64,000 bases of DNA from a virus (IMGVR_UViG_3300042691_015370:80888-144887); one strand, 5' to 3'. Shown: positions 1-64,000, counted from the first letter of the stretch. A program made the numbers and translations. Notes: generated from the sequence alone by a model not told the origin.

Positions 1-3000
1 GCTTAGCGATAGGAGCAATACTTGACAAGAACTCAACCTGAGAAGCTACGTCAACACCAGACTCTGAAGCTACTGCCGTAAGCTTGTTGCCAATAAGCTC
101 ATTGCTCTCTCCGAAAGAGAGGCCAATCGCAATAGCCTGATCACTCAGAGTCTTGGTCGGCAAGTCTGCGACAACCGCAAGCTTCGCTGCGGCTTCTCGC
201 TGCTCCTTAACCAACTCTTCGCCCGAAATCGACCTATCACCAGCACCCTTAATCGTTTCTCCCAAAAATGCGCCTCTAATAGAGATCTCCATTTTTGCGA
301 TCTCATCAGCGCCGACACCAGTTTCCTTCGAAAGATCAACGATAGCCTGTTTAATGCCATCAATCTTGCCCTTAGCGTCTTCACCAAATGTTTGCGCTAG
401 CTGCGAGTCAAGGCGTGCTAGCGCAAACTTGAGTTCTTCAGCTTCCTTGAGAGCGCCAACAAGACCAGCCCCAACACCAAACAAAAGCATAGAGGGCAAA
501 GCATACTTCATACTTTGAATTGCGCCCTCACCAAACCAACCGCCCAAGCTGTCATCGCCTCGCACAGCTTGGCGGAACGCCGTAAACCGACTTGGCTTAC
601 CATTATTGCCATAAAAACGACCGCCACCGCCGTACCCACCATAGCCGCCATAGCCGCCACCGCCGCCGTATCCACCACCCATTCCGCCACCAGCAGCAGT
701 GACAGGATCTGACAAACGACCAGTTCTTCTAAACTCTTCATCAAGAATTTCTTGATCAGAAAGGTTAAAGCTCTTCTTTAATCTTTCGTACTGAGCGGCA
801 GCTTGAGCTTGTTGTTGAGCAACATCTTCTGGGCTACCAGCACCGGGACTGAACGCCTGACCCAGAGCGCCGTATGCTCTTGTAGCTGCCTTCGCTCTTC
901 TCTCTTGCCACCTAGCAGCACCCTCGTCTGCACTCAGTTCACCTGAAACGACGTCATCCCAAATGTCGGCACTCTTGCCCTCTGGGAACAGTCCTCTGCG
1001 AGCAGCAGCTTTTTGTCTTGGGGTTAAGGCTTCCCAATTACCATCACTCAAGTTACGCGCAGCCTGACGCTGGTCAGCAGCGAACTTGGCCTTACGGGCA
1101 GCAGCGTCAGACTCGGCTTTACGATCAGCATCTGCCGTTTCATTTTCGGCCCGAGCACGACGACGTTGCTCTGCTTTCTCCTGTCGCCGTTTTTCGTTCG
1201 CTTCGGCAGCCGCAGCAATAGCGGCTAGACGATCAGCTTCAGTGGCAGGACCGACAAAAGGAGTGCCACCACCATCAATAACATTAGTACCTGCACCCAG
1301 TGCTCTGCGCTCTGCGAGTCTAGCTCTTCTTGCTTCAATATATGGGTCTACTGGAGGTAGAGCAAGAGGCTGTCGTGGCCCATAAAGCGGAATTGGCACA
1401 CCAGTACCCGGAATGTCGGTACCAATCATTAACTCTCTAGCAGAGAAGCGGCGCTGTTCAGGGGTAACTCCCGGCCCCAAGGCAAGAGGTGTTGCAGATC
1501 TACCGAGTGCCTCAGCAGCGGTTGCAGCAGCATCAGTGCCCACAGCAACTGCATGCATCTCAAGAGCCGCCGTGTCCGCAAGGAGAGCTAGCCTCAGTTC
1601 TGATGCAGTAGCTGTAAGGGAATCTAATTCACTGACAAGAACGGCTCCAGAGACTCCCGTGGCAGTAGTACGAGATCTTGCTACTTCATTAGCTCTTGTG
1701 AAAATAGCGATCTGTTCTGGTGTGGCTTCTCCCGAAGCAACTAGGGGTCGCAATTCAGCAAAGTACTCACTTGGAGATAGCTTTGACTGACTCGTTGGGA
1801 ACAGTGCGTCGGGACCACTTAGTCTGTCACCTCTACCAACAATAATCCCCTGATCTTCAAGGATCTGGCGATAAGCTGGATCTAGACCCAGCATATTCTC
1901 CATACGATGCTGAGCTTCGTGCAGGGCTGTAGCCGGTCCAGCGCCGAGAGTTGCTGCACCAGCAGCACCAACCTCACGACTCGTGCCTCCACTAGCTACC
2001 CAATCGTCAACACCAGCAATCATCTCTGAGTTCATTACCCAGCGACCATCACCCGTCATTGCCCCTAGACGGCCACGGAACTCATCGCTTAGTTCTGAAA
2101 CAACCTCGGTTCTTAGATCACCCAGCAGGTTAGGTGCCCCTGCTTGCATAGAACGCATGTATGCTTCAATACCAGATGCGCTACCCAAAATGTCAGGACG
2201 ACGAGGGGTGCTATAAGCGTCAGAACCGGGACCAAGCTCTGGCGGGCGCTTGCCTTCTTGACTTCTGCGAAGTTCTTCCTCTACCTGCTGACTAATTACC
2301 TCTGCACTTGGCATAAGGCTAACTTGTCTTGGGCTTGGCCCATAAATGGTGCGGTAACCATCATTTCCATAGTAATGAGACAACTTACTGGTGCCCGTCA
2401 GGCCCCAGTTTTGAGACACCGCCTCTGTGTCGTAAAGCGATCCGTAGCTTCCAGACTTAGCATCTAGCCATTCATTATAGGCTCTAATCATCCTTTGTCG
2501 AGTACGAAGCGAGTGATCATATATGTTGTCACGGAACCCTTCAATCCACTGTACATCACCCTCGTCCTCAAGCTGCATTTGAACGAAGTTGATAGCATCA
2601 GAAGATTGGGTTTTACGGTATCTATTGGGACGACTGAATGCTGTCTCACCAGAACCAAGCTCGCCCCTGAAAGGTGGTGGGAAGAGTTCGCTATATGAGA
2701 AGGCTCCCCTGAAGGGTGGTGGCTGTGTTCTGTAGCTTGGCAGTGGCGGAGGAATAGGTCCAGTGTAAGGTGGTAGTCCCCAACCGGGGCCTGAGTATTC
2801 GGGACGAGTAACTCCGGGCAGAGAACCAGTATAAGGAGGCGGTGTTAAAGCTTGCTTATTAGCATCCCATTGAGCTTCAAAGATCTTGTACTGAGCCTCG
2901 TCGTCGGTCAAAATGCCACGACGAATCATGCGCTCAATACTTGCGGCCGCTGTTACACTAGAATCACGAAGCCGCTCCAAAGACTCTCGCAAATTGGCAG

Positions 3001-6000
3001 GTACCTCAAGCCGACCAGCAGCTAGCCTCTGCTTTTCTGTCCATTCGCTACTATCATCAACGTCGGAACCAGCAAACAGCTTGTTCCACATGATGTCTTT
3101 GACACGCTTCTGTTGAGCAATCTGCTCGGCAGTGCCACGACCAACATCGTAACCAATAACCTCTGCACTAGGTACAGGGCTAAAACGAGATACCCGTCTT
3201 GGAGAAGGACCAATAACGTTACCATATAGATCATAAGAAAGACCTATAGTACTACCGCCTAGCCCTTCACGAGCCAATCTTTCTTGAATTGCTCCTTGTC
3301 GCTGACGGCTTCTAGGGAAAGCTTCTGCAATTTCTGCACCCGGCTTATTCTCTGTTAGCATGAAGGGCAATGCAGCGTCTTCTATAGCCTGCATGGCAAG
3401 GAAGTTCATGTAGTCAGAAGACTGCGGCCTATTCGGAGTGCTGAAGATAGTGCGGCCCGTGCCTAGAGCAAGCTGCTCACGCACGAAGGAGTCAGTATCA
3501 AGACCATACAGCCAGTCTTTAAGCTCCCTGTTACGAGGACTCTTGCTCAAAACTTGTCCGAAGATATCACCCTCATTGCGAGAAACAACATCACGAACAT
3601 TCCGAGCAGCCAAGCTTGGACTACCGCCTCTACCCAATTCTGAGTAAAGATCAATGAGAGTAAATCCAGCCCTAGGATCGTACATAAAGTTACTAGCTGA
3701 ACCAGTGTCTGGACTAAGGCCCCGCATTCCAACCGCAATCAGAGATTGCAGCATGGCTCGTACCTGAACGATCTCAGGCACAATACCCTTACCCTGCCCA
3801 AGAGCCATACCGGGCGCTAGGCGAGTAATCGGGTGACCGAGCTTATCGACAGCAGCAAGTTGCTCAACACCCGGAATGCCGATTACTTGCTGTAACCCTC
3901 TAGTACGCTCTAGTAGTCGAGCATCTGCAACTTCTGGGAACTCTCCAGTACCCTCATACAGCATCTCATAAATTGAGGGGTTCTCTGGCAGCGGCTCACG
4001 CCAAACATAAGAAGATTTGCCTGCTTTGAATCCATAGGCAGCAGCCTGTGACCCAATACCAATGGGTGAACCAAGAATCTTGCCACGATAAGCGAGAGCC
4101 AACTCTTTATCAAGAGCGGCGCGTTCTTTCGATCTGGCTAGCTGCGCAGCAAGACGTGACTGAGAGGGATCACTGTATTGAGTTGAGGCACCGGGCAGTG
4201 CAAGACGTTCAGCAACACTGCGAGAAATAAGGGGAGTCGCAAGAGCTTGAGCTTCAACCAAAAGAGCCTGAGCTTCAGGACCATCAAGTCTACGCAGTCG
4301 TTGAGCGAGGTCCAAAGAGGCTTGCGGCACTCCCCTTATTTCTCTAACAGATTGGGCAGCATTTTCTACATTACCAAGAGCTTTTTCGACCAAACCGCGC
4401 TTACTGTATTGACGAGGCAACATATCAAGCTGATAGTCAATAGATGTAAATCCTCTATCGCCCGTAGTGTCGTAGAGAACATTCTTCCAATGACCGTCGC
4501 CATGGATACCCCGCAAACCCAAAGCCGCTTGAGTCCTGAAAAGCGCAAGAATCTCATCCTTAGTGGGGATGTTTCCGAAATACGTTCCCTCGTTTTGTCT
4601 ATCAACTATTTGCTTAATAGTTTGGCCGGGGGCACGACGAGTAATTGGCCTACCATCACTAACGGCAACCAACTGCTCCGCACCCGGAATTCCAATAGCC
4701 GCCTTAAGACTATCTAGTCTAGAATAGATGTTTGGATTTAGCCTTCTGATATCTCTTCTTGCAACATACTCTTGCGAACCCGCAGCAAAACCATAGGCGG
4801 AACTGTTCATACCAGTACCCAACGCCTCTTGGGTTAAGTTTCCACCTCTCAATATTTCATTTAGTGCCAAGCGATCAGACGAACGTTGCAGTTGTGTTAT
4901 GAGACGAGCATTAGAAGGAGTACTGTAAGCGTCACGCGGCATGCCAATAGCGAGGCGCTCATCTCTGGCCCAACGTTTTTCAAGATTGAGTTCACGAGAA
5001 CCCATTGCCATAGCTTGCTTATGAAGCTTATTGAAGTCCAGTGCCATACCACCAAACTGTTGGCGTAGCGGCTCATACGCTTGAGTGAACCAAGCACGGG
5101 TAAAATCATTGGACATCTGCGGGAAGGCAAGCTCAGTGGCTGCGACTTCGGCCGTCAATTCATATGGAGTTGCTCTAGAGTAGTTGCTTGGTACAAATCC
5201 TGTACCACCAACAAGACTTCTTCTAGACTGATCTTCAAACGGTGCGCCGGTCCATCTACCGCCAATGTCCGCAATTAACTGTTTACGGTTTTGTGGCACG
5301 GGCAGGAAATGTCCAGCCTCATGAGCAAACAAGGTGCCAAACAAACCTCTACCAACAAGTGCGTTTTCATTATTAACACTCTTGGGCTGTAAACCGCCGA
5401 AAAGACGACTACGAACACCCATAAATCTAGGAGCAAACCCAGACTCACCGAGCATCCTGCCATACTGCCTTTCCCAAGGACTATTAGCATCGGAAGCTAC
5501 CCTAACGCCCAAGGCACCGAACTTTGCTACACCAGAACCAAAGCGGCTATCATAGTCAGCCATCATGGAAGCCAAAACAGGCATTGGAGCATTGGCAAAT
5601 GGCCGTCTTAGCTGCGTAAGGTCAGTGCCCTTCTTGAGGATATCGGTATTAAAAGTACCATTGAATACGCTATTAAGCGCATCAAGACTTGTTTGGTTAA
5701 TACTTCGAGATACACGCGTTCTACGGGGACCGACATCATCAAACGATGGGAAGGGCTGGATAGGGGCGAACCGGCTCGTTTGAGAAAAGGCTTGAGGGTA
5801 CAAGAACTTAGCGGCAGAAACCGCTTCACGCTCACTGCTAAAGTTTGGAATAATCTTCGCAGCTTCACCGAGTGGATTAAAATTACCTGCACTAGAGAGC
5901 ATTGCATCAACAAGTGCTGGCGCATTTCTAAGAGACTTAGCCCTAGCACGAGATGCCATAAACTGCGTCGGTCCATGCCATTGCTCAATAGATGGATCAA

Positions 6001-54203: not shown

Positions 54204-54413
54204 TCAATCCTCGTACTCAACAACAGTGTCGAAGCCACCATCTACTTGCCGAACCTCAATGATGGTTGCCTCAAACTCTTCCCCGTCCATCTCAACAGTC
54301 ACGATCTTGCCCACCTGTTCCTTCAGCACCTTGCGCAGAATCTTGTCCCGAGCATGCTGAGGTAGTAAAGGGATGTGTGGTAGGTCTAATGGGAAGTGCG
54401 TTTTGATTCTCAT
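54204..54413 (-). CDS. Small basic/acidic protein, first of the lysis operon
   Basis: 69 aa from ATG 54413; the 156-residue frame above it is unlikely coding. LPQHARDKILRKVLKEQVGK and VTVEMDGEEFEATIIEVRQV. A weak TAACAT lies five bases before the start, so it may be leaderless. It begins the minus operon 54.4-50.7 kb; function unknown. Confidence 0.55.
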   Translation of the reverse strand: MRIKTHFPLDLPHIPLLPQHARDKILRKVLKEQVGKIVTVEMDGEEFEATIIEVRQVDGGFDTVVEYED

Positions 54414-54429
54414 ACACCATGTTACGGGC

Positions 54430-54535
54430 CAACATGCAAGAAATTGCATATATGCAAGCAATAATGTGAAAAATTGCAGTGATATTGCAGGATTCACACC
54501 AAAATTGCGACAAACAAAGAGTTGGAATGCAATAC
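54430..54535. repeat. Cluster of TTGCA/TGCAA repeats in an AT-rich segment
   Basis: Seven occurrences of a 5-7 bp motif: atgcaag (54434), attgcat (54443), atgcaag (54452), aattgcag (54472), attgcag (54484), aattgcga (54503) and aatgcaat (54526). The spacing is irregular (9-20 bases). Such iteron-like AT-rich clusters occur at replication origins or operators. The sequence lies exactly at the change from AT-rich to GC-rich DNA. Confidence 0.45.
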
Positions 54536-55437
54536 TTTGCCAGTGGGCAGCAGGCAATACCGCCCAGTCCCTAGTAAACACGGGGTTCGGCCCCGGGGGG
54601 TGGTGCGACGGGTCGATCCGGGGTACATTGGTGTTGTCCCCGCCGCCGAGGTGAGCGGGGGGGGGGAGCGGCAAGGCTCCCCGAACATAGGCACTTGACT
54701 GCTACGCTTAGGCGTGTCATGCTCGTGTCGTACAAGGGAGTATCGGTCCCGCCTAACAGGCCGCACCGTTAACCATCGGCAGTGCTAGTTCTGAACAGCT
54801 AGCGTGTCAGTCCACCGGGCATCCCTCATAGCCAACCTCGCTATCCTGCGATTCTGGTCCTGCCGTGGCAGGTGCATAGTCTCCCCACCTAGAGTGGCGA
54901 CGAGTGCGAACCGGACCCCAACGTGGTGCAAGCTAGATAGTCGCCCCTGTGACGAGAGGTATTGGCACGCTTCCCCTAGCGTGAAGTCTGTCCCCATGCG
55001 ACAGGTATGGACTGATGCTAGGTACGCCGTAAAGGAAGTGTGAGCTAGTGCGACGGGGAGCCTACCTAGGTAGTGCGCCACAATAGGAGCTAGCGTCATC
55101 GGTTAGGGACGGCCCGGTAAGAACGGGGTGCTACTGAGAACGGTGTGGGTATGTGTCGGACCCACGGGTGACTGGACAGTGCAACGTCAGGGACGGCCAC
55201 GGACGACTGAGTGCGAAGCCTGCCCGGAAACCAACCTAAGTGTAAGAGCGCCTAAAGCTTACCGCAACCCTAACCTACGCCCAGAGTCGAGAGACTAGGG
55301 CTTAGCAAGTGTGCCCGCTGGGCCGACCGTGCAACTGCACTCCAGAACGCTTGCTACGCCGGTCCTCCTAAGGCTCGACGTCTGCTCTGGGCGCCATGCG
55401 ACAGAGGTTCGCAGTAGCTAGCACATGGAGGACCATC
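54536..55437. other. GC-rich, hairpin-rich non-coding tract
   Basis: About 900 bases without a supportable gene: open frames on both strands are shadows. Perfect stems include CGGGG/CCCCG (54581-54595), CCCCGC/GCGGGG (54638-54660), GGGGAGC/GCTCCCC (~54663-54682), CCTGCC/GGCAGG (~54862), GGCGAC/GTCGCC (~54896-54946), CACGCT/AGCGTG (~54967-54984) and CTGTC/GACAG (~54988-55004). A run of ten G lies at 54657-54666. A TTGACT...CATGCT promoter-like pair is near 54692. The tract may be a long ncRNA, an origin or a packaging region. Confidence 0.5.
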
Positions 55438-55842
55438 GTGTCCGAGAACACCGCAATCACCCCCGAGATGGCGCAGGCCGAGATCGACCGGCGTGCCGCC
55501 AACAAGGCCGCCAAGGCAGCGGCCCGCAAGCAGGGTGCCAAGAAGTTCACCCGCATCGCCGCCACCGACCCGGTGCTCATGGCCCTGTCGGGTGAGCAGT
55601 TGGACCTGCTCGTCAAGCCCGCCGAGGCCCAGCCCGAGGTGCCCACCATCAAGACCGCCCCGGCGTGGAACGAGCCGGGTGTGCGGGGTGGCGACCCGGT
55701 GAAGCGCAACCGGGCGCTGCTGGCCGACAAGCTGGTGGGTGCCGACTCCAAGGGCACCCCGGCGTGGTGGGACGCCTACCGCTCGACCAAGGACATGACC
55801 TTGGACGAGTTGGGTGTGGCGCTCGGGTTCATCACCGCCTGA
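55438..55842 (+). CDS. Unrecognised basic protein, first of the right arm
   Basis: 134 aa from GTG 55438 (GGAGG eight bases before); frames starting upstream lack sites. Basic, Ala-rich N-terminus (AANKAAKAAARKQGAKKF), then a polar core ending TLDELGVALGFITA. First gene of the GC-rich plus arm. Codon use is strongly C-ending, unlike the left region. Function unknown. Confidence 0.65.
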   Translation: MSENTAITPEMAQAEIDRRAANKAAKAAARKQGAKKFTRIAATDPVLMALSGEQLDLLVKPAEAQPEVPTIKTAPAWNEPGVRGGDPVKRNRALLADKLVGADSKGTPAWWDAYRSTKDMTLDELGVALGFITA

Positions 55843-55850
55843 GATGCCAA

Positions 55851-55877
55851 GTCCTGAGCATGACTGAAACTGCTCGC
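55851..55877 (+). promoter_or_regulatory. Repeat element copy 1 (TCCTGAGCATGAC...TGCTC)
   Basis: TCCTGAGCATGAC then GAAACTGCTC. GAGCA and TGCTC are inverted about a 10-base spacer. A TACACC/CTAGGGT-like -10 follows 12-18 bases later, then GAAAGG and ATG 55942. Six copies of this element lie only in the GC-rich arm's gaps. Confidence 0.6.
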
Positions 55878-55941
55878 CCCTACACCTAGGGTGTGGTGCT
55901 TCGATGCACGCTAGGGGGCCACCTGCGAGAAAGGTACATGC

Positions 55942-56139
55942 ATGAGCAAGCCCGTCCCGCCACCGCCACCCACACGGCGCAACGTGTTCTCCCCGACCGA
56001 CCGTGACCCCAAGGTCACCCGTACCCGCACGGCCTACACCGTGGACCGTACCAGCCGCCCCGGTGTGGTGACCCGCTCGCACACCGAGGGCAAGCTGACC
56101 CGGCGTGAGTTGGAGCGCATGATGAAGTACCGGGGCTGA
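55942..56139 (+). CDS. Small Pro/Arg-rich protein
   Basis: 65 aa, GAAAGG eight bases upstream. MSKPVPPPPPTRRNVFSPTD then basic residues (RTAYTVDRTSRPGVVTRSH). Disordered-looking, nucleic-acid-binding in character. Not recognised. Confidence 0.6.
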   Translation: MSKPVPPPPPTRRNVFSPTDRDPKVTRTRTAYTVDRTSRPGVVTRSHTEGKLTRRELERMMKYRG

Positions 56140-56185
56140 GATCACACACCGGGCAAACGTCCATAAGACCAGCTTGGAGGCTGAG

Positions 56186-56530
56186 TTGAGCAAGCGCACC
56201 TACAACTACATGGCACCCCGTGCCCTGCGAGCGAACATGCGATCCCGCTCCAAGACCGAAGATCCGATGCACGATCCCCGCAAGCACGAGCGTCGGGTGG
56301 AGCAGATCCCGTCCGAGTACCGCACCCTGCCCGGATCACCGCAGCACATCGTGTCGAACATGCCCGCAGTGTCGAGTGTGCTGGGCATGATGGGTGAGAA
56401 GCAGGCCCGCTACCGGGTCGAGAAGGACAACAAGCGCACCGAGTACGTCGGTCGCACCTCCAAGCTCCCCGAGTGTGGGCCGAGCGCCCGCAAGTCCGAC
56501 AACCACCGAGCCGCAGCAGACGGGAAGTGA
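56186..56530 (+). CDS. Unrecognised basic protein
   Basis: 114 aa from TTG 56186, five bases behind GGAGG; a longer TTG start at 56174 is less likely. MAPRALRANMRSRSKTEDPM and KQARYRVEKDNKRTEYVGR are basic. Runs into the next gene with a two-base gap. Function unknown. Confidence 0.55.
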   Translation: MSKRTYNYMAPRALRANMRSRSKTEDPMHDPRKHERRVEQIPSEYRTLPGSPQHIVSNMPAVSSVLGMMGEKQARYRVEKDNKRTEYVGRTSKLPECGPSARKSDNHRAAADGK

Positions 56531-56532
56531 CC

Positions 56533-56736
56533 ATGAACGAGCGCAACCGACGAACCACCAAGCCACGCCCAGCACGACCCACCATCGTCTACCGCATCGG
56601 TGGCATCAGGTGGGTGCCATGCACGCAGACCGAGGCCGAGTGGTACTACCACGCCGCCGAGGGTCAGGTGTACCCCAACGTGTGCTACCCAGTCATGCAC
56701 AAGGGGCACGCTGTCATGCCAGTCCGTCCACTCTAG
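56533..56736 (+). CDS. Small basic protein
   Basis: 67 aa, ATG two bases after the previous stop. MNERNRRTTKPRPARPTIVY then RIGGIRWVPCTQTEAEWYYH with an aromatic cluster. Not recognised. Confidence 0.55.
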   Translation: MNERNRRTTKPRPARPTIVYRIGGIRWVPCTQTEAEWYYHAAEGQVYPNVCYPVMHKGHAVMPVRPL

Positions 56737-56751
56737 CGAGAGGCTAGTCCC

Positions 56752-57054
56752 ATGACCGAGACAGTCAACGGTCGTCCCGTCAAGAACTTCGTCGCCATGT
56801 TCGTCCCGCTCAGCATCTGTGCCTTGCCCGAGGAAATGGGCCTCAAGGGCACGGGTGTGCAGATCCCCGGCTTCACCCATGAGGGCATGACCGTGGAGCC
56901 ACACCTCGTGACCGAGGTGATGGAGGGTCACAACTGCGTGACCGTGGAACCGGGTCGCAAGGCCCACATCTTCGCAACCCGTGCAGAGGCGGAAGCCTTC
57001 GTAGAAGCACAGACAGTCCGCAAGTCGGGCTGGATGGTCCTTCCCCGTACCTAG
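56752..57054 (+). CDS. Unrecognised protein
   Basis: 100 aa, GAGAGG seven bases before ATG. FVAMFVPLSICALPEEMGLK, TRAEAEAFVEAQTVRKSGWM; mixed beta. Followed by AGGAGG for the next small gene. Not recognised. Confidence 0.6.
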   Translation: MTETVNGRPVKNFVAMFVPLSICALPEEMGLKGTGVQIPGFTHEGMTVEPHLVTEVMEGHNCVTVEPGRKAHIFATRAEAEAFVEAQTVRKSGWMVLPRT

Positions 57055-57068
57055 GAGGTACACACATC

Positions 57069-57218
57069 ATGACCAACCCCACCAAGACCAAGCACGTCGT
57101 CCGTACCAAGACCCACATGCAGGCGTTCAGCGACGAGCGTGACCGCCGCATCGTGGACTGGGTGCTGACCGCCGAGTCCGAGGACTGGGAAGCCTCCCAG
57201 TCCCAGCCCATCGACTGA
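57069..57218 (+). CDS. Small protein
   Basis: 49 aa, below usual cut-offs, with AGGAGG upstream. MTNPTKTKHVVRTKTHMQAF then an acidic helix (SEDWEASQSQPID). Last gene before a ~690-base gap containing repeat elements and tRNA-like structures. Confidence 0.5.
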   Translation: MTNPTKTKHVVRTKTHMQAFSDERDRRIVDWVLTAESEDWEASQSQPID

Positions 57219-57279
57219 CCACAGCTACCTTGCCAGTGTGCAAGGGGTGTGGTGAGAGGAACGAGATGTTCACTACACA

Positions 57280-57312
57280 GTCCTGAGCAGGACACGAAAC
57301 TGACTCAACGAT
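57280..57312 (+). promoter_or_regulatory. Repeat element copy 2
   Basis: GTCCTGAGCAGGAC then ACGAAACTGACTCA. The first part is a perfect 6-bp palindrome (GTCCTG/CAGGAC). The downstream half-site is TGACTCA instead of TGCTC, showing the arms vary together. Confidence 0.6.
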
Positions 57313-57385
57313 GCCACACTGTACCGGGTCGTCCGGGCAGGAGATGGACGAGCGGCTGGCCGCACGCACAGCGTTTACATGAATG

Positions 57386-57428
57386 GTCCTGAGTAAGACT
57401 TTAAACATCTGCTCACATAGCCCTAGCA
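57386..57428 (+). promoter_or_regulatory. Repeat element copy 3
   Basis: GGTCCTGAGTAAGACTTTAA then ACATCTGCTCACATAG. The left arm reads GAGTA, the right TGCTC (T-G pair allowed). A TAGCCCTAG-like -10 lies ~17 bases after the AAGACT hexamer. Confidence 0.55.
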
Positions 57429-57446
57429 CACAGTTGCAGAGGGAAT

Positions 57447-57490
57447 GGCACTGAGCAATGCCACACAAATTGCTCCCGCAACGTAGGTGC
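57447..57490 (+). promoter_or_regulatory. Repeat element copy 4 (compensated arms)
   Basis: GGCACTGAGCAATGCC then ACACAAATTGCTC. Here the usual GTC/GAC arms are replaced by GGCA/TGCC, and GAGCAAT pairs perfectly with ATTGCTC over a 9-base spacer. Such compensatory changes support base pairing or dimer binding as the selected feature. Confidence 0.55.
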
Positions 57491-57520
57491 TACGGCAACT
57501 TGGAGTGTGAGTGATAGCTG

Positions 57521-57560
57521 GTCCTGAGTATGACGTAAACTGCTCCGCTAGGGTGACGTG
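57521..57560 (+). promoter_or_regulatory. Repeat element copy 5
   Basis: GTCCTGAGTATGACGTAAAC then TGCTCCGCTAGGGTGACG. GAGTA pairs with TGCTC (one G-U). A CTAGGGT lies 8 bases after the right arm, as in copy 1. Confidence 0.58.
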
Positions 57561-57604
57561 TTATATCACCCCCGAGGCTACGGACGGTAAGCCGTGGCAA
57601 ACGT

Positions 57605-57696
57605 TTGTAAAGGTAGCCACCCAAGGGGCCTTAGTCAAGGGTGTAGCCAAACCGCTACTAGCAGGCTGGTGTCGTAAGTCAGCCCTACCTTTACAA
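57605..57696 (+). ncRNA. tRNA-like cloverleaf candidate
   Basis: The outer stem TTGTAAAGGTAG/CTACCTTTACAA is a perfect 12-bp acceptor-like stem. Inside are three hairpins: CCTT/AAGG (D-arm-like, 57629-57640), GTAGC/GCTAC with a six-base CAAACC loop (57643-57658), and GGCTG/CAGCC (57664-57684) that abuts the acceptor directly, as a tRNA T-arm does. No CCA, no canonical anticodon loop, and the T-loop is 11 bases. It may be a degenerate tRNA or a new tRNA-like RNA. Confidence 0.5.
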
Positions 57697-57767
57697 CCAC
57701 ACCATCGTATGGTGTGTCTAGTAAGCGTAACAAGGAATCGGTAGCGTCCCCGCACCCTCCGGGTGTG

Positions 57768-57862
57768 AAGAAGGGTGGGCTGATCCCTGACCGGAGTTCA
57801 CGCAGCAACCGTGCTGGTGCCGGGGTGAAGGACAGCGGGCTAGGTTCGACTCCAGCCTTCTT
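57768..57862 (+). ncRNA. tRNA-like candidate with T-arm-like 3' part
   Basis: AAGAAGG/CCTTCTT acceptor-like arms (57768-57774 and 57856-57862). The internal GGTTCGACTCC matches the T-loop consensus, with stems GGCT.GG/CC.AGCC carrying one bulged A. A CAGCA/TGCTG hairpin is in the middle. No CCA end and no resolvable anticodon loop. Suggestive only. Confidence 0.4.
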
Positions 57863-57908
57863 GTTGCGCTTATTAGCTACACCAACCAAGCCCATGAGAG
57901 GGATTTGC

Positions 57909-58190
57909 ATGCCCATGCCCGAGATGCCCAACCGCCGAGACAGTGCCTTCCGTAGCCTGTCACCCACCGAGTCCTGCACGCAGAAGGTCCACACCACGGG
58001 TGTGCAGTGGGTCTACAAGTTCGACAACGGGTGGGGCGCATCCATCATCACCGATGGCTCCGGGTGTCAGATGGGGCTGTTTGAGGTGGCTCCCATCGAC
58101 CCCAAGAACGGGTTGGATGACATGGGTGTGCGGGGCTACCTGACCGCAGCCGATGTCATCGACTACCTGCGAGACATCGCCACCCGCTGA
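57909..58190 (+). CDS. Unrecognised protein
   Basis: 93 aa from ATG 57909 (GAGAGGG upstream); frames starting at 57714 run through the tRNA-like region. MPEMPNRRDSAFRSLSPTES, KVHTTGVQWVYKFDNGWGAS, LTAADVIDYLRDIATR. Beta then helix. Not recognised. Confidence 0.6.
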   Translation: MPMPEMPNRRDSAFRSLSPTESCTQKVHTTGVQWVYKFDNGWGASIITDGSGCQMGLFEVAPIDPKNGLDDMGVRGYLTAADVIDYLRDIATR

Positions 58191-58348
58191 ACGCAAGAAC
58201 GTCAGTCTGGCTGGATTGATCCCCGGACCTGACAACGTGTGGGTCTAGCACTAGGTAAGAATTGTTGGCCTCGTTTAGAGTGTTTGAGCCGCAATCGCCC
58301 ACACAACCATCGCAAGTTCCCAACCCGCCTTTAAGGAGGCACCCAGCA

Positions 58349-58609
58349 ATGACCACCATCACCACCCTGACCACCTACACCGCCATCTTCGCCGTGGGCG
58401 ACCACAAGCTGCCCATCAAGGTGGCCGCTGCCAACCGAGGTGAGGCGACCAACCTCGCCCGCAAGATCCTGCGGGAGCGCATCGGTGACCCCACCTACGG
58501 CAACTTCCCGATCTCGGTCGTGGAGCAGCCCGTGAAGGTGGGTGCCCGTGCCATCGCCACCAACCCCACGGTGGTGAAGCGCAAGGTGCGTACCCGCACC
58601 CAGAGCTAG
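58349..58609 (+). CDS. Unrecognised basic beta protein
   Basis: 86 aa, AAGGAGG ten bases before ATG 58349. TAIFAVGDHKLPIKVAAANR, GEATNLARKILRERIGDP, VVKRKVRTRTQS. Basic C-terminus. Not recognised. Confidence 0.6.
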   Translation: MTTITTLTTYTAIFAVGDHKLPIKVAAANRGEATNLARKILRERIGDPTYGNFPISVVEQPVKVGARAIATNPTVVKRKVRTRTQS

Positions 58610-58656
58610 TTCCCTAGCTAACCAACCCAACCAACCACGACGCCACAGGAGGCAAC

Positions 58657-58884
58657 GTGAGCAACACTCCCATCCGTACCGTGACGGTCAAGCCCCTCGC
58701 TCTCAAGCAGGAGCAGGGCCGTCGCCGCAACAACAAGTCCCGCCCCGCAGGCGAGAAGGTCCGCACCAAGGCGTACTACCTCGCTGCCTTCAGCAAGTCC
58801 GAGATGGATGCGCTGGTGGCCGGTGAGACTGTGACCAAGACCTACAAGTCCGGTCGCACCGAGAGCTACGTGCTCGCCAAGTGA
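58657..58884 (+). CDS. Small basic protein
   Basis: 75 aa from GTG 58657 (AGGAGG upstream). NTPIRTVTVKPLALKQEQGR, RRNNKSRPAGEKVRTKAYYL, ESYVLAK. Likely nucleic-acid binding by charge. Followed by a repeat element and the tRNA block. Confidence 0.6.
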   Translation: MSNTPIRTVTVKPLALKQEQGRRRNNKSRPAGEKVRTKAYYLAAFSKSEMDALVAGETVTKTYKSGRTESYVLAK

Positions 58885-58890
58885 GTTACC

Positions 58891-58936
58891 GTCCTGAGCA
58901 TGACGTTAAACTACTCAACGGTCTAACATAGCCACC
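58891..58936 (+). promoter_or_regulatory. Repeat element copy 6
   Basis: GTCCTGAGCATGACGTTAAA then CTACTCAACGGTCTAACATAG. GAGCA pairs with TACTC (one mismatch). ATGACG and TAACAT are 18 bases apart, which could be -35/-10 boxes of a promoter for the tRNA region. It is the best promoter-like copy. Confidence 0.6.
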
Positions 58937-59058
58937 TAAACATGAGTCCAAATGCGGCAGTTTGGGAAAGCAAAGTATGTTCGGCCCCCGGTGGTGAGCA
59001 AGCAATCCGGCGCTAAGCTATTAGCGATAGTGCGACTAGTGACCACAAATAGCATGAA

Positions 59059-59139
59059 CGGTTAGGTAAGTAGGCAGACGTGAATGCGCTTGGGGGTGTT
59101 ACAGCCGTCAAGAAGCGGGTTAAACTCCCGCCTAACCGT
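59059..59139 (+). ncRNA. tRNA-like element upstream of tRNA-Trp
   Basis: CGGTTAG (59059-59065) and CTAACCG (59132-59138) form a perfect 7-bp acceptor, extended outward by near-identical bases (ATGAA...TTTCAT). The T-arm GCGGG-TTAAACT-CCCGC (59115-59131) is perfect and abuts the acceptor. GGCAGACG is D-arm-like (as in Leu tRNAs). The anticodon arm could not be resolved and there is no CCA. It starts six bases before the tRNA-Trp candidate. Confidence 0.5.
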
Positions 59140-59144
59140 TTCAT

Positions 59145-59218
59145 GCGGGTAAGCGTAGGCTGTGCCGGTCAGATTCCAAACCTGTACCGCTGGGGTTCGA
59201 TTCCCTGTACCCGTGCCA
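59145..59218 (+). tRNA. tRNA-Trp (anticodon CCA) candidate
   Basis: 74 bases including an encoded CCA. Acceptor GCGGGTA/TACCCGT (one G-U). T-arm TGGGG-TTCGATT-CCCTG with the TTCGATT loop. Anticodon loop TTCCAAA (T33, CCA34-36, A37) on an imperfect stem with two mismatches. The D-arm is short (GCG/TGC). Discriminator G. The anticodon would read UGG. Mismatches in the anticodon stem lower confidence; it may be a weak or degenerate tRNA. Confidence 0.6.
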
Positions 59219-59242
59219 CACGACACCCTTTAAGGAGGGATG

Positions 59243-59401
59243 ATGAGCAAGCCCAAGAGCAACGTCCCTCCCACACCGAGGGCAGACCCCCGCATGTGGC
59301 GGGTCAACCAGCGTGCAGTCAAGCACGCCATCCAGCCCAAGAAGAACGACCGCAACGCTTGCCGCAAGAACAAGGGCAGGCGCAACCGAGAGGACTACTG
59401 A
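59243..59401 (+). CDS. Small basic protein
   Basis: 52 aa from ATG 59243 (AAGGAGG, four bases; ATG 59240 also possible). SKPKSNVPPTPRADPRMWRV then NQRAVKHAIQPKKNDRNACR. Overlaps the next gene by one base (TGATG). Basic, likely nucleic-acid binding. Confidence 0.55.
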   Translation: MSKPKSNVPPTPRADPRMWRVNQRAVKHAIQPKKNDRNACRKNKGRRNREDY

Positions 59402-59595
59402 TGAGCAAGCCGATGGGCTGGGCCACCACCACGACAAAGTTCATCCACCGCAATGGCGTGGTGGAACTTCGCTCCGACGACCCCACTGCCACCGTGTGTA
59501 GTGAGTGTGGACGTGGCTGGGACGACAGCGTGTCCACCGCAACGACGCCCGCACCCGCTGGCCGGTGTCCCTTTGAGTACGAGCACGGAAGGTAA
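59401..59595 (+). CDS. Small zinc-ribbon-like protein
   Basis: 64 aa. MSKPMGWATTTTKFIHRNGV, VELRSDDPTATVCSECGRGW with CSECG and a later single Cys near the end (GRCPFEYEHGR). Small zinc-binding phage proteins of this kind are common. Three bases before the phosphoesterase gene. Confidence 0.6.
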   Translation: MSKPMGWATTTTKFIHRNGVVELRSDDPTATVCSECGRGWDDSVSTATTPAPAGRCPFEYEHGR

Positions 59596-59598
59596 GTC

Positions 59599-60144
59599 AT
59601 GGCTGACATCTTCGCAACCGCAGACCTACACCTTGGGCATGACTTCGTAGGCTGTGGTATCCGTGGCTTCGACACGGTGCAGGACCACGACGACTACATC
59701 ACCCATGTGTGGAACAGCACCATCCGTCCCCGTGACGAGGTGTGGTTCCTTGGTGACTTCCGCATGGGACAGTGCTCACAGGAGCGTGCCCGTAGCATCT
59801 TCCACTCACTGCATGGGATCAAGCACATGGTGCGTGGCAACCATGACCCCAAGTGGGTGACTGAGCTAGGGTGGAGCAGCGTGCATGACCTTGTGCGCCG
59901 CAAGCTGAACGGTCACACCTACATCATGTGCCACTACCCGATGCTGACGTGGCCCAATGCACACCACGGATCGTGGCACCTGCACGGACACTCGCACGGG
60001 AACCTGAACGCACCTGAGTCCACACGTATGGACGTGGGCATCGACTGCCACCCTGAGCGTCGGCCTTTCTCCATTGACGAGATCGAAGCCATCCTGTCCA
60101 CCCGTACCTACGACTTCGTAGACCACCACACCGACGACGACTAG
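59599..60144 (+). CDS. Metallophosphoesterase (calcineurin-like)
   Basis: 181 aa with all motifs: ADLHLGH (D9, H11), FLGDF (D53), RGNHD (N81, H82), CHYP (H112) and HGHSHG (~131). Single-domain phosphoesterase often found near phage RNA-repair and tRNA genes. Ninth base after its stop begins the next gene. Substrate unknown; cyclic nucleotide or RNA phosphates fit the family. Confidence 0.88.
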   Translation: MADIFATADLHLGHDFVGCGIRGFDTVQDHDDYITHVWNSTIRPRDEVWFLGDFRMGQCSQERARSIFHSLHGIKHMVRGNHDPKWVTELGWSSVHDLVRRKLNGHTYIMCHYPMLTWPNAHHGSWHLHGHSHGNLNAPESTRMDVGIDCHPERRPFSIDEIEAILSTRTYDFVDHHTDDD

Positions 60145-60152
60145 GAGTCATC

Positions 60153-60458
60153 ATGTTCTGGCTAGCCTCAGTGTCCAGCAACAGCAGCGACGACGGCTTG
60201 CAGGGTCCGTACAACACCCTGACCGAAGCGGCCGAGGATCGCATCGTCGCTGCACAGGTAGTGGTGAACGACAACGGCCACATCGTCAAGGACGACACAT
60301 GGTTGTGGGACTGGGAGCGCAACACTGGCTCTGCGTCCTACGCATGGAGAATGCTCCACGGTGAGGGCGAGTGGGTCGCTCGTCACAACAAGTTCGGCAC
60401 AGGCTGGCAGAGCCACAACCCTGTGCTCCCGCCCGGACACTACAAGGATGGCCGATGA
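60153..60458 (+). CDS. Unrecognised protein
   Basis: 101 aa. MFWLASVSSNSSDDGLQGPY, TWLWDWERNTGSASYAWRML; Trp-rich. Coupled by ATGA to the next gene. Not recognised. Confidence 0.6.
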   Translation: MFWLASVSSNSSDDGLQGPYNTLTEAAEDRIVAAQVVVNDNGHIVKDDTWLWDWERNTGSASYAWRMLHGEGEWVARHNKFGTGWQSHNPVLPPGHYKDGR

Positions 60459-60640
60459 GGATTGAGTACGTGTCATCCGTAAGCGAGGGCATGGTGCGGT
60501 TCTACCGTTCGGATGATGGCTACGAGGGTTTCCATTTCATGTCCCTCTCGTCATTCAGGGAGTACCTCGCACAAGAACGAGCAAGTCTCGACAAGCTAGA
60601 GACAGAGCTAGCTGAACTCATGGAGGACGAAGATGTTTGA
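60455..60640 (+). CDS. Small unrecognised protein
   Basis: 61 aa from ATG 60455. MRIEYVSSVSEGMVRFYRSD, FREYLAQERASLDKLETELA: beta start then helix. Overlaps its neighbours. Not recognised. Confidence 0.55.
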   Translation: MRIEYVSSVSEGMVRFYRSDDGYEGFHFMSLSSFREYLAQERASLDKLETELAELMEDEDV

Positions 60641-60935
60641 TTGCCTGCACATCGACAACCACAACGTCCCGCTCTGCGGGGCCGCTGGCTTCGACCGTGA
60701 CATGGTTGTGGCCGAGGCGACCTTCACCGAGAATCCCTACGGGGACCGTCGGTGCTGGGAGTGTGCCAGCATCATCGGAGTAGACCTGACTCCTACCCTG
60801 CCCACCATCGACCCGGAGGATGACTACGAGGGTGACGACACTGCCGAGGCTCTGCGGCATGACCGTCTAAGCTCAGAGTTCTGTGGATTCTGTGCCACCC
60901 GCCACCACCCCAACCAGCCCTGTCAGGAGGACTGA
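60633..60935 (+). CDS. Cys-rich small protein
   Basis: 100 aa. Two Cys/His clusters: FDCLHIDNHNVPLCG near the start and EFCGFCATRHHPNQPC at the end, with CWEC in the middle. Zinc binding is likely. Overlaps the previous stop by 8 bases. Confidence 0.6.
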   Translation: MFDCLHIDNHNVPLCGAAGFDRDMVVAEATFTENPYGDRRCWECASIIGVDLTPTLPTIDPEDDYEGDDTAEALRHDRLSSEFCGFCATRHHPNQPCQED

Positions 60936-60936
60936 T

Positions 60937-61122
60937 ATGTGGATCACCATGGGCACCAAGTTCAGCGACCCCGCTGATGAGAGCATCGTCTGGGAAGTCA
61001 ACCCCGGCTCGGTGTTCGATGACGACACCTTCCAAGCAGAACTGATCGCCGGTCCTGAGGGCAGGCTCGGTGAGATGACGCTGTTCACCCGTGCAGACAT
61101 CGAAGCGGGACTGTTGCCATGA
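60937..61122 (+). CDS. Small unrecognised protein
   Basis: 61 aa from ATG 60937 (AGGAGG upstream). MWITMGTKFSDPADESIVWE, FDDDTFQAELIAGPEG, TRADIEAGLLP. Coupled to the next gene by ATGA. Not recognised. Confidence 0.55.
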   Translation: MWITMGTKFSDPADESIVWEVNPGSVFDDDTFQAELIAGPEGRLGEMTLFTRADIEAGLLP

Positions 61123-61313
61123 GTGAGCGTCAGTTCACAGACCGTCAGTTGATCGTCAAGCTGCTTGACGAGAACCTCAAAGCCCTACACCCGAGTCGTG
61201 GCAAGGAGAACGCACGACTGGTGCGCCTTGTGTGTGAGGAAATCGGTGCCTGTGAGGACGATTTCTTGGCACGACACATCAAGCGAGACAAGAAGGCATG
61301 GGGCCTTGACTGA
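61119..61313 (+). CDS. Small basic helical protein
   Basis: 64 aa, ATGA-coupled. SERQFTDRQLIVKLLDENLK, RGKENARLVRLVCEEIGACE. Helical and basic. Not recognised. Confidence 0.55.
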   Translation: MSERQFTDRQLIVKLLDENLKALHPSRGKENARLVRLVCEEIGACEDDFLARHIKRDKKAWGLD

Positions 61314-61482
61314 GGACAAGGTGTTCTTCTACGTCGTGCGGCACTTGGGCAAGGACGGACATGAGGTGTATGTGGGACCGTTCGACTACAAGTTCCAAGC
61401 ACGCAAGTACCTGCTAGACGAAACTGGTTCACCGAACGGTGGGCTAGTGATCCTCGTACTGACACCCAAGGACAGCAAGTGA
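61306..61482 (+). CDS. Small beta protein
   Basis: 58 aa from TTG 61306 (overlaps the previous stop); GTG 61321 behind GAGG is the alternative. MTEDKVFFYVVRHLGKDGHE, VYVGPFDYKFQARKYLLDET. Beta-alpha pattern. Coupled by GTGA to the next gene. Not recognised. Confidence 0.5.
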   Translation: MTEDKVFFYVVRHLGKDGHEVYVGPFDYKFQARKYLLDETGSPNGGLVILVLTPKDSK

Positions 61483-61748
61483 GAACACACGTCGAAGTGC
61501 GGCCCACGATGCAGCAGACCATCGACATCACAAGGGCACAGGATCACGCATGGGGTGTGGGTTCATGGGGTGCTGGTGAGTTCTGGGGCATCATCCTGAA
61601 GAATCTGGATGGCAAGTTCGATGTCCAGATCAACAACAACATGGGCATCCATCCCTTGATGGGTCAGACGAGTACCTTGGAGAATGCCAAAGCTATGATC
61701 CGCAAGCATATTGAGTTCGCTGTCCACTGCACACCTGAGAGAGACTGA
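61479..61748 (+). CDS. Small unrecognised protein
   Basis: 89 aa from GTG 61479. RTHVEVRPTMQQTIDITRAQ, AWGVGSWGAGEFWGIILKN, DGKFDVQINNNMGIHP. Trp-rich beta. Not recognised. Confidence 0.55.
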   Translation: MRTHVEVRPTMQQTIDITRAQDHAWGVGSWGAGEFWGIILKNLDGKFDVQINNNMGIHPLMGQTSTLENAKAMIRKHIEFAVHCTPERD

Positions 61749-61965
61749 CATTCCTACCGCAACTGTCGGTGTCGTAGACGTAGAGCTACGAGAGATGAGC
61801 AAGGGCCACTACGTTGTGGTGGTCGCACACAGCAAGTTCGGCTTGCTGTACGAGATCCAGATTGACGAGTTCGACAAAGACTCACTGGTGCAGGGCATCG
61901 AAATCGAATGCATCGACCGGATCAACAACGTGTCGCTAGACATCAACACCTTGGAGGATGTGTGA
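61711..61965 (+). CDS. Small beta protein, start uncertain
   Basis: Up to 84 aa from TTG 61711, or ~56 aa from ATG 61795. The segment TVGVVDVELREMSKGHYVVV spanning that ATG looks like a beta hairpin, which argues for a start upstream of it. FGLLYEIQIDEFDKDSLVQG, NVSLDINTLEDV follow. GTGA overlap with the next gene. Not recognised. Confidence 0.45.
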   Translation: MSSLSTAHLRETDIPTATVGVVDVELREMSKGHYVVVVAHSKFGLLYEIQIDEFDKDSLVQGIEIECIDRINNVSLDINTLEDV

Positions 61966-62138
61966 GTTCTGGGGGATACTGGTCGGTTGACTGGTATTGG
62001 CAGAGAGTCAAGGCAATGCGAGAGGCGGCAAACCTTTCGTGCCCTGACTTGCCCGACCATTGGGAGCCGATGGAACGACTCGCTTACCGTAGTGGGTGGC
62101 AGGACGCAATGAAGAAGGTCAAGGAGGCAGGCAAGTGA
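61962..62138 (+). CDS. Small protein
   Basis: 58 aa from GTG 61962. SSGGYWSVDWYWQRVKAMRE, LPDHWEPMERLAYRSGWQDA. Trp-rich helix pair. GTGA-coupled to the next gene. Not recognised. Confidence 0.55.
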   Translation: MSSGGYWSVDWYWQRVKAMREAANLSCPDLPDHWEPMERLAYRSGWQDAMKKVKEAGK

Positions 62139-62323
62139 GTGACGTGCGATACATGCGGGTGGTTGGTCAGTGTGACAACACCACCTTCACCAAGCGACTG
62201 CTGACCTGTGGCACTGATGAGCAGACGCTGAACCTGCTCAACGACAGTTACCCCGGTGTCCACTTCTTTCAGGTGCTGGAGTGTGCAGAGTTGGGTGACC
62301 ACATCATCAAGTTCGTAGACTGA
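62135..62323 (+). CDS. Small unrecognised protein
   Basis: 62 aa from GTG 62135. SDVRYMRVVGQCDNTTFTKR, LNLLNDSYPGVHFFQVLECA. Beta-alpha. Not recognised. Confidence 0.55.
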   Translation: MSDVRYMRVVGQCDNTTFTKRLLTCGTDEQTLNLLNDSYPGVHFFQVLECAELGDHIIKFVD

Positions 62324-62333
62324 GGGAGAACAC

Positions 62334-62561
62334 ATGGCCGGTACCCTGAACACGATGCCCTTCTACGTCCAGCGTGAGTTGCTGGGCCGAGACTGGCACG
62401 AGTGCGTGTCTCAGCGTGACCTGAGGATGGTGTCGAACTACCGCAAGGTTGAGAACCGACGCACCCGTGCGCAGACCAAGCAGGCACTGCGACAGGAGCG
62501 TTACGACGATTTGCCCACACACTCCACGGCCCGAGGTTCGGCGCTGTGGCTGGCCTACTGA
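62334..62561 (+). CDS. Small basic protein
   Basis: 75 aa with GAGGGAG upstream. AGTLNTMPFYVQRELLGRDW, RKVENRRTRAQTKQALRQER. Basic helix, likely nucleic-acid binding. Precedes the Fic gene. Confidence 0.6.
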   Translation: MAGTLNTMPFYVQRELLGRDWHECVSQRDLRMVSNYRKVENRRTRAQTKQALRQERYDDLPTHSTARGSALWLAY

Positions 62562-62571
62562 GAGGTTGACG

Positions 62572-63057
62572 ATGGATCTGATCGACTACATCTACGACGA
62601 GTGCCAGCGTCAGCATGTTGGAAACTACGGCGACTTTGCTACTGGCTGGCAGATCGCCAGAGATCGTGAAAGTGTCGGTTCTTGGCAGGAATTCGCAATC
62701 TTTGTCATGAGGATTGCAAGGGCAGTGGATTACGCCAACCTTTACCGTCCCGGTGAGGGTGAGAATCTGCGTACTTCACACGTTGGCTTCATGCACGGTG
62801 GCTCTGCTGCCCCTGCTGGCGAGGTTCGTGAACGGTTCGACCGCTGGTGCGAGTTCACTCACGAGTGGTTGCGAGATTGGGGGCCAATGGTTGATGGCTT
62901 GCAGCCCCCATACGAGATTGACTCTCTCATCAAGCAGTTGCTCGACATCCACCCGTGGGCCGATGGCAATGGTCGCACTGCAAGTATCCTTCGCAACTGG
63001 ATGCTGAGACAACTCGATGATCCCGAGCCGCTACCGTTTTACTACGGAGATACCTGA
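62572..63057 (+). CDS. Fic-domain protein (AMPylase-like)
   Basis: 161 aa from ATG 62572 (GAGAGG six bases upstream). IHPWADGNGRTASIL matches the Fic motif HPFxxGNGRxxR (H127, D131, N133, R135), but the last Arg is Ser138, which may weaken nucleotide binding. The long preceding helices (SLIKQLLDIHPW) suit the fold. Fic proteins usually AMPylate a target and are common in toxins. Overlaps the cREC gene start by one base (TGATG). Confidence 0.8.
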   Translation: MDLIDYIYDECQRQHVGNYGDFATGWQIARDRESVGSWQEFAIFVMRIARAVDYANLYRPGEGENLRTSHVGFMHGGSAAPAGEVRERFDRWCEFTHEWLRDWGPMVDGLQPPYEIDSLIKQLLDIHPWADGNGRTASILRNWMLRQLDDPEPLPFYYGDT

Positions 63058-63449
63058 TGATCCTCGTGATTGATGACGAGCGCACGTTCGCTCAAGACCC
63101 AAACCTTGTTGGTTACGTTGATTGGGTGTATGCCCGCACGTCCGACGAGGGAATCGTTGCCATCGTCAAGGCATGGACCAACTACGCCCTGCACTATGGG
63201 AACATGGTCGATCTGTACCTTGACCACGATCTTGGTGAGGGTGACACGATCATGCCGGTCGTAGACTTCCTGTATGTGGCCGGAAGGCAGTCAGGTATCA
63301 TGAATCCATCTGACATGGTACGCCCACCGCAGTTCATCAGCAACATCTTCATTCATTCGCAGAACCCTACTGCGGGTGATACGATCATCCCCCTGCTCTC
63401 CCCCCTTTACAGTAACGTGCAGCGCATCCCGCTGCCCAAGCTTGTGTGA
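63057..63449 (+). CDS. Cyclic-phosphate-processing receiver (cREC)-domain protein
   Basis: 130 aa. ILVIDDERTF (D6/D7), VDLYLDHDLGEGDT (D56, D58) and SNIFIHSQNPTAGDT (H100) give a receiver-like core with the extra His motif of cREC proteins, predicted to process 2',3'-cyclic phosphates on RNA. No HTH or kinase partner is attached. One base overlap with the Fic gene suggests they are made together. Confidence 0.8.
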   Translation: MILVIDDERTFAQDPNLVGYVDWVYARTSDEGIVAIVKAWTNYALHYGNMVDLYLDHDLGEGDTIMPVVDFLYVAGRQSGIMNPSDMVRPPQFISNIFIHSQNPTAGDTIIPLLSPLYSNVQRIPLPKLV

Positions 63450-63456
63450 GGTAACC

Positions 63457-63687
63457 ATGCAACTAACCGTTGATCTCTACATCACGGACCCGTTTGACGA
63501 AGTGCAGACTCCGTGGCAGATAGAGTGGAACTATGGCAGTAAGATCGCTGCCGTCCGGTGTCGTCAGCCCTACATGGAGTGGCCGGTCGAGTTGGAGATT
63601 TCTCCCTTTGCTACGCTCGCTGGTGTGAAGCAGACGCTGACGCTGGTGTTGCGTACCCATGTTCGTGACCTGACAGGAATCGGTTGA
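63457..63687 (+). CDS. Small unrecognised protein
   Basis: 76 aa. MQLTVDLYITDPFDEVQTPW, RQPYMEWPVELEISPFATLA, TLTLVLRTHVRDLTG: beta-rich. Last Cys-poor gene before the membrane gene. Not recognised. Confidence 0.55.
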   Translation: MQLTVDLYITDPFDEVQTPWQIEWNYGSKIAAVRCRQPYMEWPVELEISPFATLAGVKQTLTLVLRTHVRDLTGIG

Positions 63688-63893
63688 TGACTCCACGCAC
63701 TGAGAGTGTGATGATCCGTTGCTTGCAAACCTTCATGGCTTTGGTCATCGTAGGCTTTGTTGGCAACTTCGTGTACGAGGCGCACAAGATGTTCACCAAG
63801 GGTGACAACGTTGGTGGATGGATGGCTCTAGGAGTGGCGGCAGTGTTTGTCGCCATCGGAGTGCTGGGTTGGCTGGCACAGGAGGATGACTAA
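63687..63893 (+). CDS. Small membrane protein
   Basis: 68 aa from ATG 63687 (TGATG). Two hydrophobic stretches: MALVIVGFVGNFVYEA and GWMALGVAAVFVAIGVLGWL. Acidic end (AQEDD). Membrane helices visible; role unknown. Confidence 0.6.
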   Translation: MTPRTESVMIRCLQTFMALVIVGFVGNFVYEAHKMFTKGDNVGGWMALGVAAVFVAIGVLGWLAQEDD

Positions 63894-64000
63894 TGGCTAA
63901 GCAGAGTTTGGTTGAGTCCTTTGAGGACTGTTACGGCGTGAAGCTTCCCACCTGTCGGGAAGTGTGCCCTGAGTGTGACGGATACGGTGAGTATGTGCAT
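63893..64000 (+). CDS. Truncated Cys-rich protein at the window edge
   Basis: At least 36 codons, open to the right edge. MAKQSLVESFEDCYGVKLPT then CREVCPECDGYGEY. The CxxC and CPECDGYG resemble zinc ribbons of DnaJ or primase type. TAATG coupling with the membrane gene. Confidence 0.5.
   Translation, partial: MAKQSLVESFEDCYGVKLPTCREVCPECDGYGEYVH

Follow-up and report, generated by a model that had tools for sequence, protein, structure and literature searches.

Exoribonuclease-resistant RNAs (xrRNAs) are so far known from RNA viruses. The described element closest to the one reported here is coremin (xrRNA_C) of benyviruses, cucumoviruses and others (GUCCGAAGACGUUAAACUAC; PMC10520033), which stalls Xrn1 and also scanning ribosomes in vitro; the study searched RNA viruses only and mentions neither phages nor bacteria (PMC10520033). 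Bacterial enzymes can be stopped by such RNAs as well, a flavivirus xrRNA having halted RNase J1 of Bacillus subtilis in vitro (PMC5760640). Here we analyse a stretch of 64,000 nucleotides (nt) from a viral record (IMGVR_UViG_3300042691_015370:80888-144887), hereafter the window, in which six short repeats, together with their relatives elsewhere, almost certainly fold as an H-type RNA pseudoknot, to judge from their pattern of base changes. The element recurs in unrelated phages with many hosts, and no family of Rfam 15 overlaps the motif either at the gathering cut-offs or at E values up to 10. Nor did we find any report of it in phages in the open-access PMC literature, a scope outside which most subscription papers and preprints lie. 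A covarying RNA of some 27 nt, found in hundreds of phages, offers a new handle on phage control of message stability.

Structure of the repeated element

Read 5' to 3', the element comprises the first strand of helix P1, a CU loop (L1), the first strand of helix P2, one base, the second strand of P1 (P1'), a loop (L3) ending in AAAC, and the second strand of P2 (P2'), about 27 nt in all. The two helices (P1, NGTC/GACN; P2, GAGYA/TGCTC, 5 bp) interleave, which is the topology of an H-type pseudoknot; in such a fold the CU loop would span the deep groove of P2. The end of L3 reads (U)AAAC.

Both helices vary in sequence while keeping their pairing. With P1 left free, the triplet 5' of CTGAG is GTC at 248 of 424 sites, and 160 of the 176 others re-pair with a different partner (GAC/GTC, ATC/GAT, CAC/GTG, CTC/GAG, TTC/GAA and more); a part of these loci stems from scans in which GAC was fixed, and this raises the share of GTC but leaves the pairing of the non-GTC sites unaffected. 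Across 210 unique sites, pairs 2-4 of P1 form in 98-100% against 55-98% in shuffles and the outermost pair in 70% against 41%, the top pair is C-G in 207, and P1 is 3-6 bp long. Searches that left P2 free gave 37 non-GAGYA sites, of which 31 retain at least four of the five pairs, through combinations such as GGACA/TGTCC, GGTCA/TGACC and GAATA/TGTTC. An alignment of 53 sequences has 89.9% of its cells paired and two-sided changes in eight of nine pairs, and its doubly changed cells number 84, compared with 23 in shuffles; the observed covariation score is reached by none of 500 shuffles, and sliding the strands lowers pairing to 26-46%. When both loops were left free in the search, L1 was CU at 170 of 177 sites and L3 ended in AAAC at 169. 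Stems that are free in sequence beside loops that are invariant indicate that selection acts on the RNA fold.

The first-pass annotation of the window had described the repeats as an inverted repeat with covarying arms, the pairing of which, or dimer binding, would be under selection. Compensatory changes in the stems, across sites from hundreds of phages, bear out the covariation and the selection on pairing, but the single inverted repeat gives way to two interleaved helices. All six copies are present where that annotation had placed them, on the + strand only, in gene gaps and within one 3-kb stretch of the window. They are listed here with the coding sequences (CDS) directly 5' of the first and last:

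55396..55842, + strand: CDS directly 5' of copy 1, without PHROG match
55850..55875, + strand: copy 1, starting 7 nt past the stop of the CDS ending at 55842; P1 AGTC/GACT (55850-55853/55862-55865), L1 CT, P2 GAGCA/TGCTC (55856-55860/55871-55875), L3 GAAAC
57280..57306, + strand: copy 2, a variant; P1 GTC/GAC (57280-57282/57291-57293), P2 GAGCAG (57285-57290) with CTG-A-CTC (57300-57306), the A bulged
57385..57414, + strand: copy 3, a variant; P1 GGTC/GACT, P2 GAGTA/TGCTC (57391-57395/57410-57414), L3 TTAAAC plus ATC (three extra nt after AAAC)
57447..57475, + strand: copy 4, a variant; P1 GGCA/TGCC (57447-57450/57459-57462), P2 GAGCAA/TTGCTC (57453-57458/57470-57475), L3 ACACAAA, without AAAC before P2
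57521..57545, + strand: copy 5; P1 GTC/GAC (57521-57523/57532-57534), P2 GAGTA/TGCTC (57526-57530/57541-57545), L3 with AAAC
58657..58884, + strand: CDS directly 5' of copy 6, without PHROG match
58890..58916, + strand: copy 6, starting 5 nt past the stop of the CDS ending at 58884; P1 CGTC/GACG (58890-58893/58902-58905), P2 GAGCA/TACTC with a single C-A mismatch (58896-58900/58912-58916), L3 TTAAAC

The pseudoknot is best fitted by copies 1, 5 and 6, while the variants, copies 2-4, lie in a non-coding cluster (57280-57475). A scan of 54.4-64 kb by pairing rules recovers five of the six copies, whereas shuffles of the stretch average 0.2 and never exceed 2; the repetition is beyond chance. On the whole 144,887-base record, the strict pattern gives five matches on the + strand and none on the - strand, and the pattern read backward gives none. 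The motif search that the annotation had proposed returned zero copies in the rest of the record (81 kb beyond the window); other phages yielded hundreds of sites.

The arm to which the motif is restricted, at the right end of the window (54400-64000), climbs in G+C from about 0.48 to 0.56-0.61. The window also includes an apparently non-coding 900-base stretch (54500-55400), and two tRNA-like sequences with acceptor-like ends (59054-59142 and 59146-59220), not called by ARAGORN, in which a T-loop-like GTTAAAC or GTTCGATTC is found.

Occurrence in phages and bacteria

Virus contigs from public data, together with bacterial assemblies and named phages, give at least 577 structurally complete sites in at least 432 loci. 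Pattern scans of IMG/VR contributed at least 115 loci, the true number being larger, and one scan of bacterial genomes returned 105 stretches. The reversed query had zero matches against phages, and 28 Gb of Escherichia coli genomes had none. Random queries of 440-470 nt, run for host background, recovered no more than 5 and 9 records, numbers that do not allow an estimate; nearly all of these fall inside annotated CDS, unlike the motif. Matches on plasmids were set aside as chance, since they sit within integrase genes where shown, as was a match in a Xanthomonas phage, which is antisense within a CDS. In the named phages, the knot comes after a same-strand gene and, where one is annotated, ahead of another; the settings include the following:

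Cyanophage S-CRM01: knot before gp32, and also inside the tRNA array
Cyanophages S-SM2 and S-EIVl, Roseobacter SIO1, Lentibacter ICBM3, Paracoccus ParMal1, Corynebacterium phi673, Mycobacterium Labelle, Microbacterium Count, Moorella MTATph1 and Nostoc NMeng1: knot after a same-strand gene and, where annotated, before another
Arthrobacter Molivia: gene order ssb, knot, tRNA-Gly
crAss cr7_1: knot 5' of primase
Two Microviridae: knot after a same-strand gene and, where one is annotated, before a further gene

In addition, three Firmicutes phages (Lactobacillus phiEF-1.1, Streptococcus Javan271 and D6E) have the knot directly before the scaffold and capsid genes.

Some bacterial loci are of other kinds. 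In a Lachnospiraceae locus (L273, 5482-5536), which seems to belong to the chromosome and not to a phage, the motif has an FKBP-domain gene on one side and an MBOAT gene on the other, a setting that the similar layout of a second locus (L321) suggests there too. Loci of Deltaproteobacteria and related bacteria (L262, L281, L287, L307, L313, L326 and L330) have the motif between conserved flanks (gatacgctg ... atcag), often with no same-strand CDS upstream; there the motif may perhaps belong to a longer bacterial RNA.

Gene context and possible function

Gaps between genes, where the first-pass annotation had placed the copies, are the location not only of these six but of sites across hundreds of phages. 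Viral sites that have both neighbours number 434. Co-directional CDS flank 318 of them, and 37 fall in convergent and 18 in divergent gaps, the last two counts being rough with the simple open reading frame (ORF) caller used. A same-strand CDS stands upstream of 398 of these sites (92%), whereas the downstream element varies; at 43 a CDS stands 5' and a tRNA or transfer-messenger RNA (tmRNA) 3'. A tRNA or tmRNA is next downstream at 46 sites, in 30 cases at 3-13 nt, whereas RNA genes precede only 8 sites. Where the knot begins within 12 nt of a stop codon, the distance from stop to P1 is 5 nt in 53 cases and 6 nt in 37, and never less than 4; about a third of the same-strand sites lie at least 30 nt beyond the called stop. 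UAA is the upstream stop in 70%, against about 55%. In L066 (7895-8148), the motif stands 6 nt 5' of a phage-encoded tmRNA, and a tmRNA is present in a related contig (L053) too. In Clostridia, four motif-bearing loci (L255, L286, L325 and L327) contain the DUF2800 RNA (RF02960), which in L255 (2824-2981, - strand) has the motif immediately 5' (2983-3006).

The neighbouring genes spread over many families, none of them dominant, and the element is therefore generic; a riboswitch for a single pathway is ruled out on the same ground. An intrinsic terminator was likewise rejected, with TTTT within 12 nt at only 97 of 494 sites. A readthrough or frameshift signal was discarded too: UAA is favoured, and the open codons past the stop are similar to those of other ORFs (in-frame median 14 against 8 in other ORFs, with fewer in the other frames).

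The best explanation, which we advance tentatively, is that the knot acts mechanically, as a roadblock where cistrons end, and most likely obstructs 5'-to-3' exonucleases, RNase J among them. A roadblock role that limits the extent of phage message decay is probable; the blocked direction and the enzyme we infer. Position and lack of gene specificity argue for a generic roadblock, and the core common with coremin (a C-G closing pair, a pyrimidine and the spacer UUAAACU) points to exoribonuclease blocking. The pseudoknot would be placed in phage mRNA at cistron edges as a portable device: a 5'-to-3' exoribonuclease (RNase J in most hosts), trailing the last ribosome along a cistron, would reach the knot just beyond the stop codon and stall, sparing the next cistron, tRNA or tmRNA of the polycistronic RNA, much as the xrRNAs of RNA viruses act. 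RNase J is carried by lineages of Firmicutes, Actinobacteria, cyanobacteria and alpha-proteobacteria, and hosts from these groups account for 43 of 51 named-phage records; a full-length RNase J was found in 39 of 50 motif-bearing assemblies. The host distribution, with the lack of matches in E. coli genomes, agrees in part with RNase J as target.

Several observations weigh against such a roadblock. The Bacteroidota phages crAss cr7_1 and cr124_1 carry the motif, and none of 61 Bacteroidota genomes has RNase J above the cut-off; strict dependence on RNase J is thereby not supported, and this enzyme cannot be the sole target. Several bacterial loci have only a terminator after the knot, and neither the coremin loop rule (YGAD/YGNNAD) nor its following hairpin (hp2) is seen. 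Moreover, in wide gaps the knot is near the upstream stop in 48 cases and near the next start in 17, an anchoring which a protector of downstream RNA would not need and which would better suit either a protector of 3' ends or a barrier to ribosomes. As the former, the knot would halt 3'-to-5' exonucleases (PNPase, RNase R), and the upstream message would survive a downstream cut, for instance the one that RNase P makes at a tRNA's 5' end where a tRNA follows. We regard this as unlikely, though worth serious consideration: the nearly constant upstream CDS before variable downstream elements, the order CDS, knot, tRNA or tmRNA at close spacing, the scarcity of sites after RNA genes and the stop-codon spacing, with its floor at 4-5 nt and mode at 5-6 nt, all speak for it. 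PNPase and RNase R exist in enterobacteria and pseudomonads too, yet neither the named-phage records nor the E. coli genomes hold an enterobacterial or pseudomonad phage with the motif; besides, an ordinary GC hairpin would suffice, and in the nearest described element it is from the 5' side that the block acts.

A barrier to ribosomes, rather doubtful in our judgement, would stand flush with the terminating ribosome and keep post-termination ribosomes from the next start region, tRNA or terminator. The spacing from stop to P1 matches the 5-6 nt at which recoding pseudoknots are held against the mRNA entry channel; the enrichment of UAA is a further point in favour. The block of scanning ribosomes by coremin in vitro (PMC10520033) fits as well, but the sites far beyond the called stop do not, nor do the four window copies in the non-coding cluster, away from any stop, and the absence from gamma-proteobacterial phages is left unexplained. 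It is improbable that the knot is a ribozyme cutting itself, or a site of processing, by which cistrons would be parted and tRNA leaders released. Free stems with invariant loops are typical of ribozymes, the motif is present in tRNA arrays, and a pistol ribozyme (L160, 733-785, - strand) lies in a phage contig that also has the motif, but no Rfam ribozyme matches at the motif, and a catalytic core would be expected to conserve more nucleotides than these (CU, one G, AAAC and the closing C-G). Finally, the first-pass annotation had suggested promoters or operators of a repressor/antirepressor network, for which repetition on one strand in gaps might speak, just as location past stop codons might suggest a recoding signal; we consider either very improbable. 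Stem bases are exchanged with pairing kept, which argues against a DNA-reading protein, and the motif is strand-specific, follows stop codons and is carried by unrelated phages in many hosts, while the frames past the stop are not lengthened in a readthrough-like way and UAA is favoured.

Comparison with described RNA elements

PreQ1-I type riboswitches and frameshifting H-type pseudoknots share the topology, the size and an A-rich L3. The element differs from them in its conserved loops, and has neither a gene-family association nor a recoded frame. ToxI is a tandem array adjoining its toxin gene, whereas the element described here occurs mostly as single copies at many gene boundaries. ToxI-type antitoxin RNAs and their phage mimics are, like it, small pseudoknots in phage biology (PMC3475682). 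The STAXI RNA motif (RF01728; PMC2864571) is also a simple repeated pseudoknot near genes that include those of single-stranded DNA-binding proteins, but it consists of tandem repeats with UUCG loops in Enterobacteriales, and our motif has no Rfam match.

The likeness to coremin goes further. Both have a short P1 closed by C-G (in coremin the 4-bp hairpin hp1 with a C-G top pair), a loop beginning with a pyrimidine and, after hp1, a GUUAAACUAC-like spacer, seen here as the AAAC before P2, and both are located in intergenic gaps and at the start of 3' untranslated regions. Over GUCC..GACGUUAAACUAC, copy 6 is identical to the stem and spacer of the coremin of beet necrotic yellow vein virus (BNYVV) (PMC10520033). 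However, the loop of the knot has 8 nt (CUGAGYAn) with G at position 3, whereas the coremin rule places G at position 2 (PMC10520033); GAGYA pairs with a downstream UGCUC, with covariation, where coremin has the separate hp2 after the spacer; and the knot is found in DNA phages, whereas the coremin survey covered RNA viruses. Because it departs from coremin in both the loop rule and hp2, the element is not a member of coremin/xrRNA_C. Nevertheless, it is possible, and we put it forward with reserve, that DNA phages of hosts in many phyla share a dedicated exoribonuclease-resistant RNA, a prokaryotic counterpart of the flavivirus and plant-virus xrRNAs, which would divide polycistronic mRNA into separately protected segments. 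If so, DNA phages would use against bacterial nucleases the same device as RNA viruses, and the knot would provide a portable part for tuning expression inside operons.
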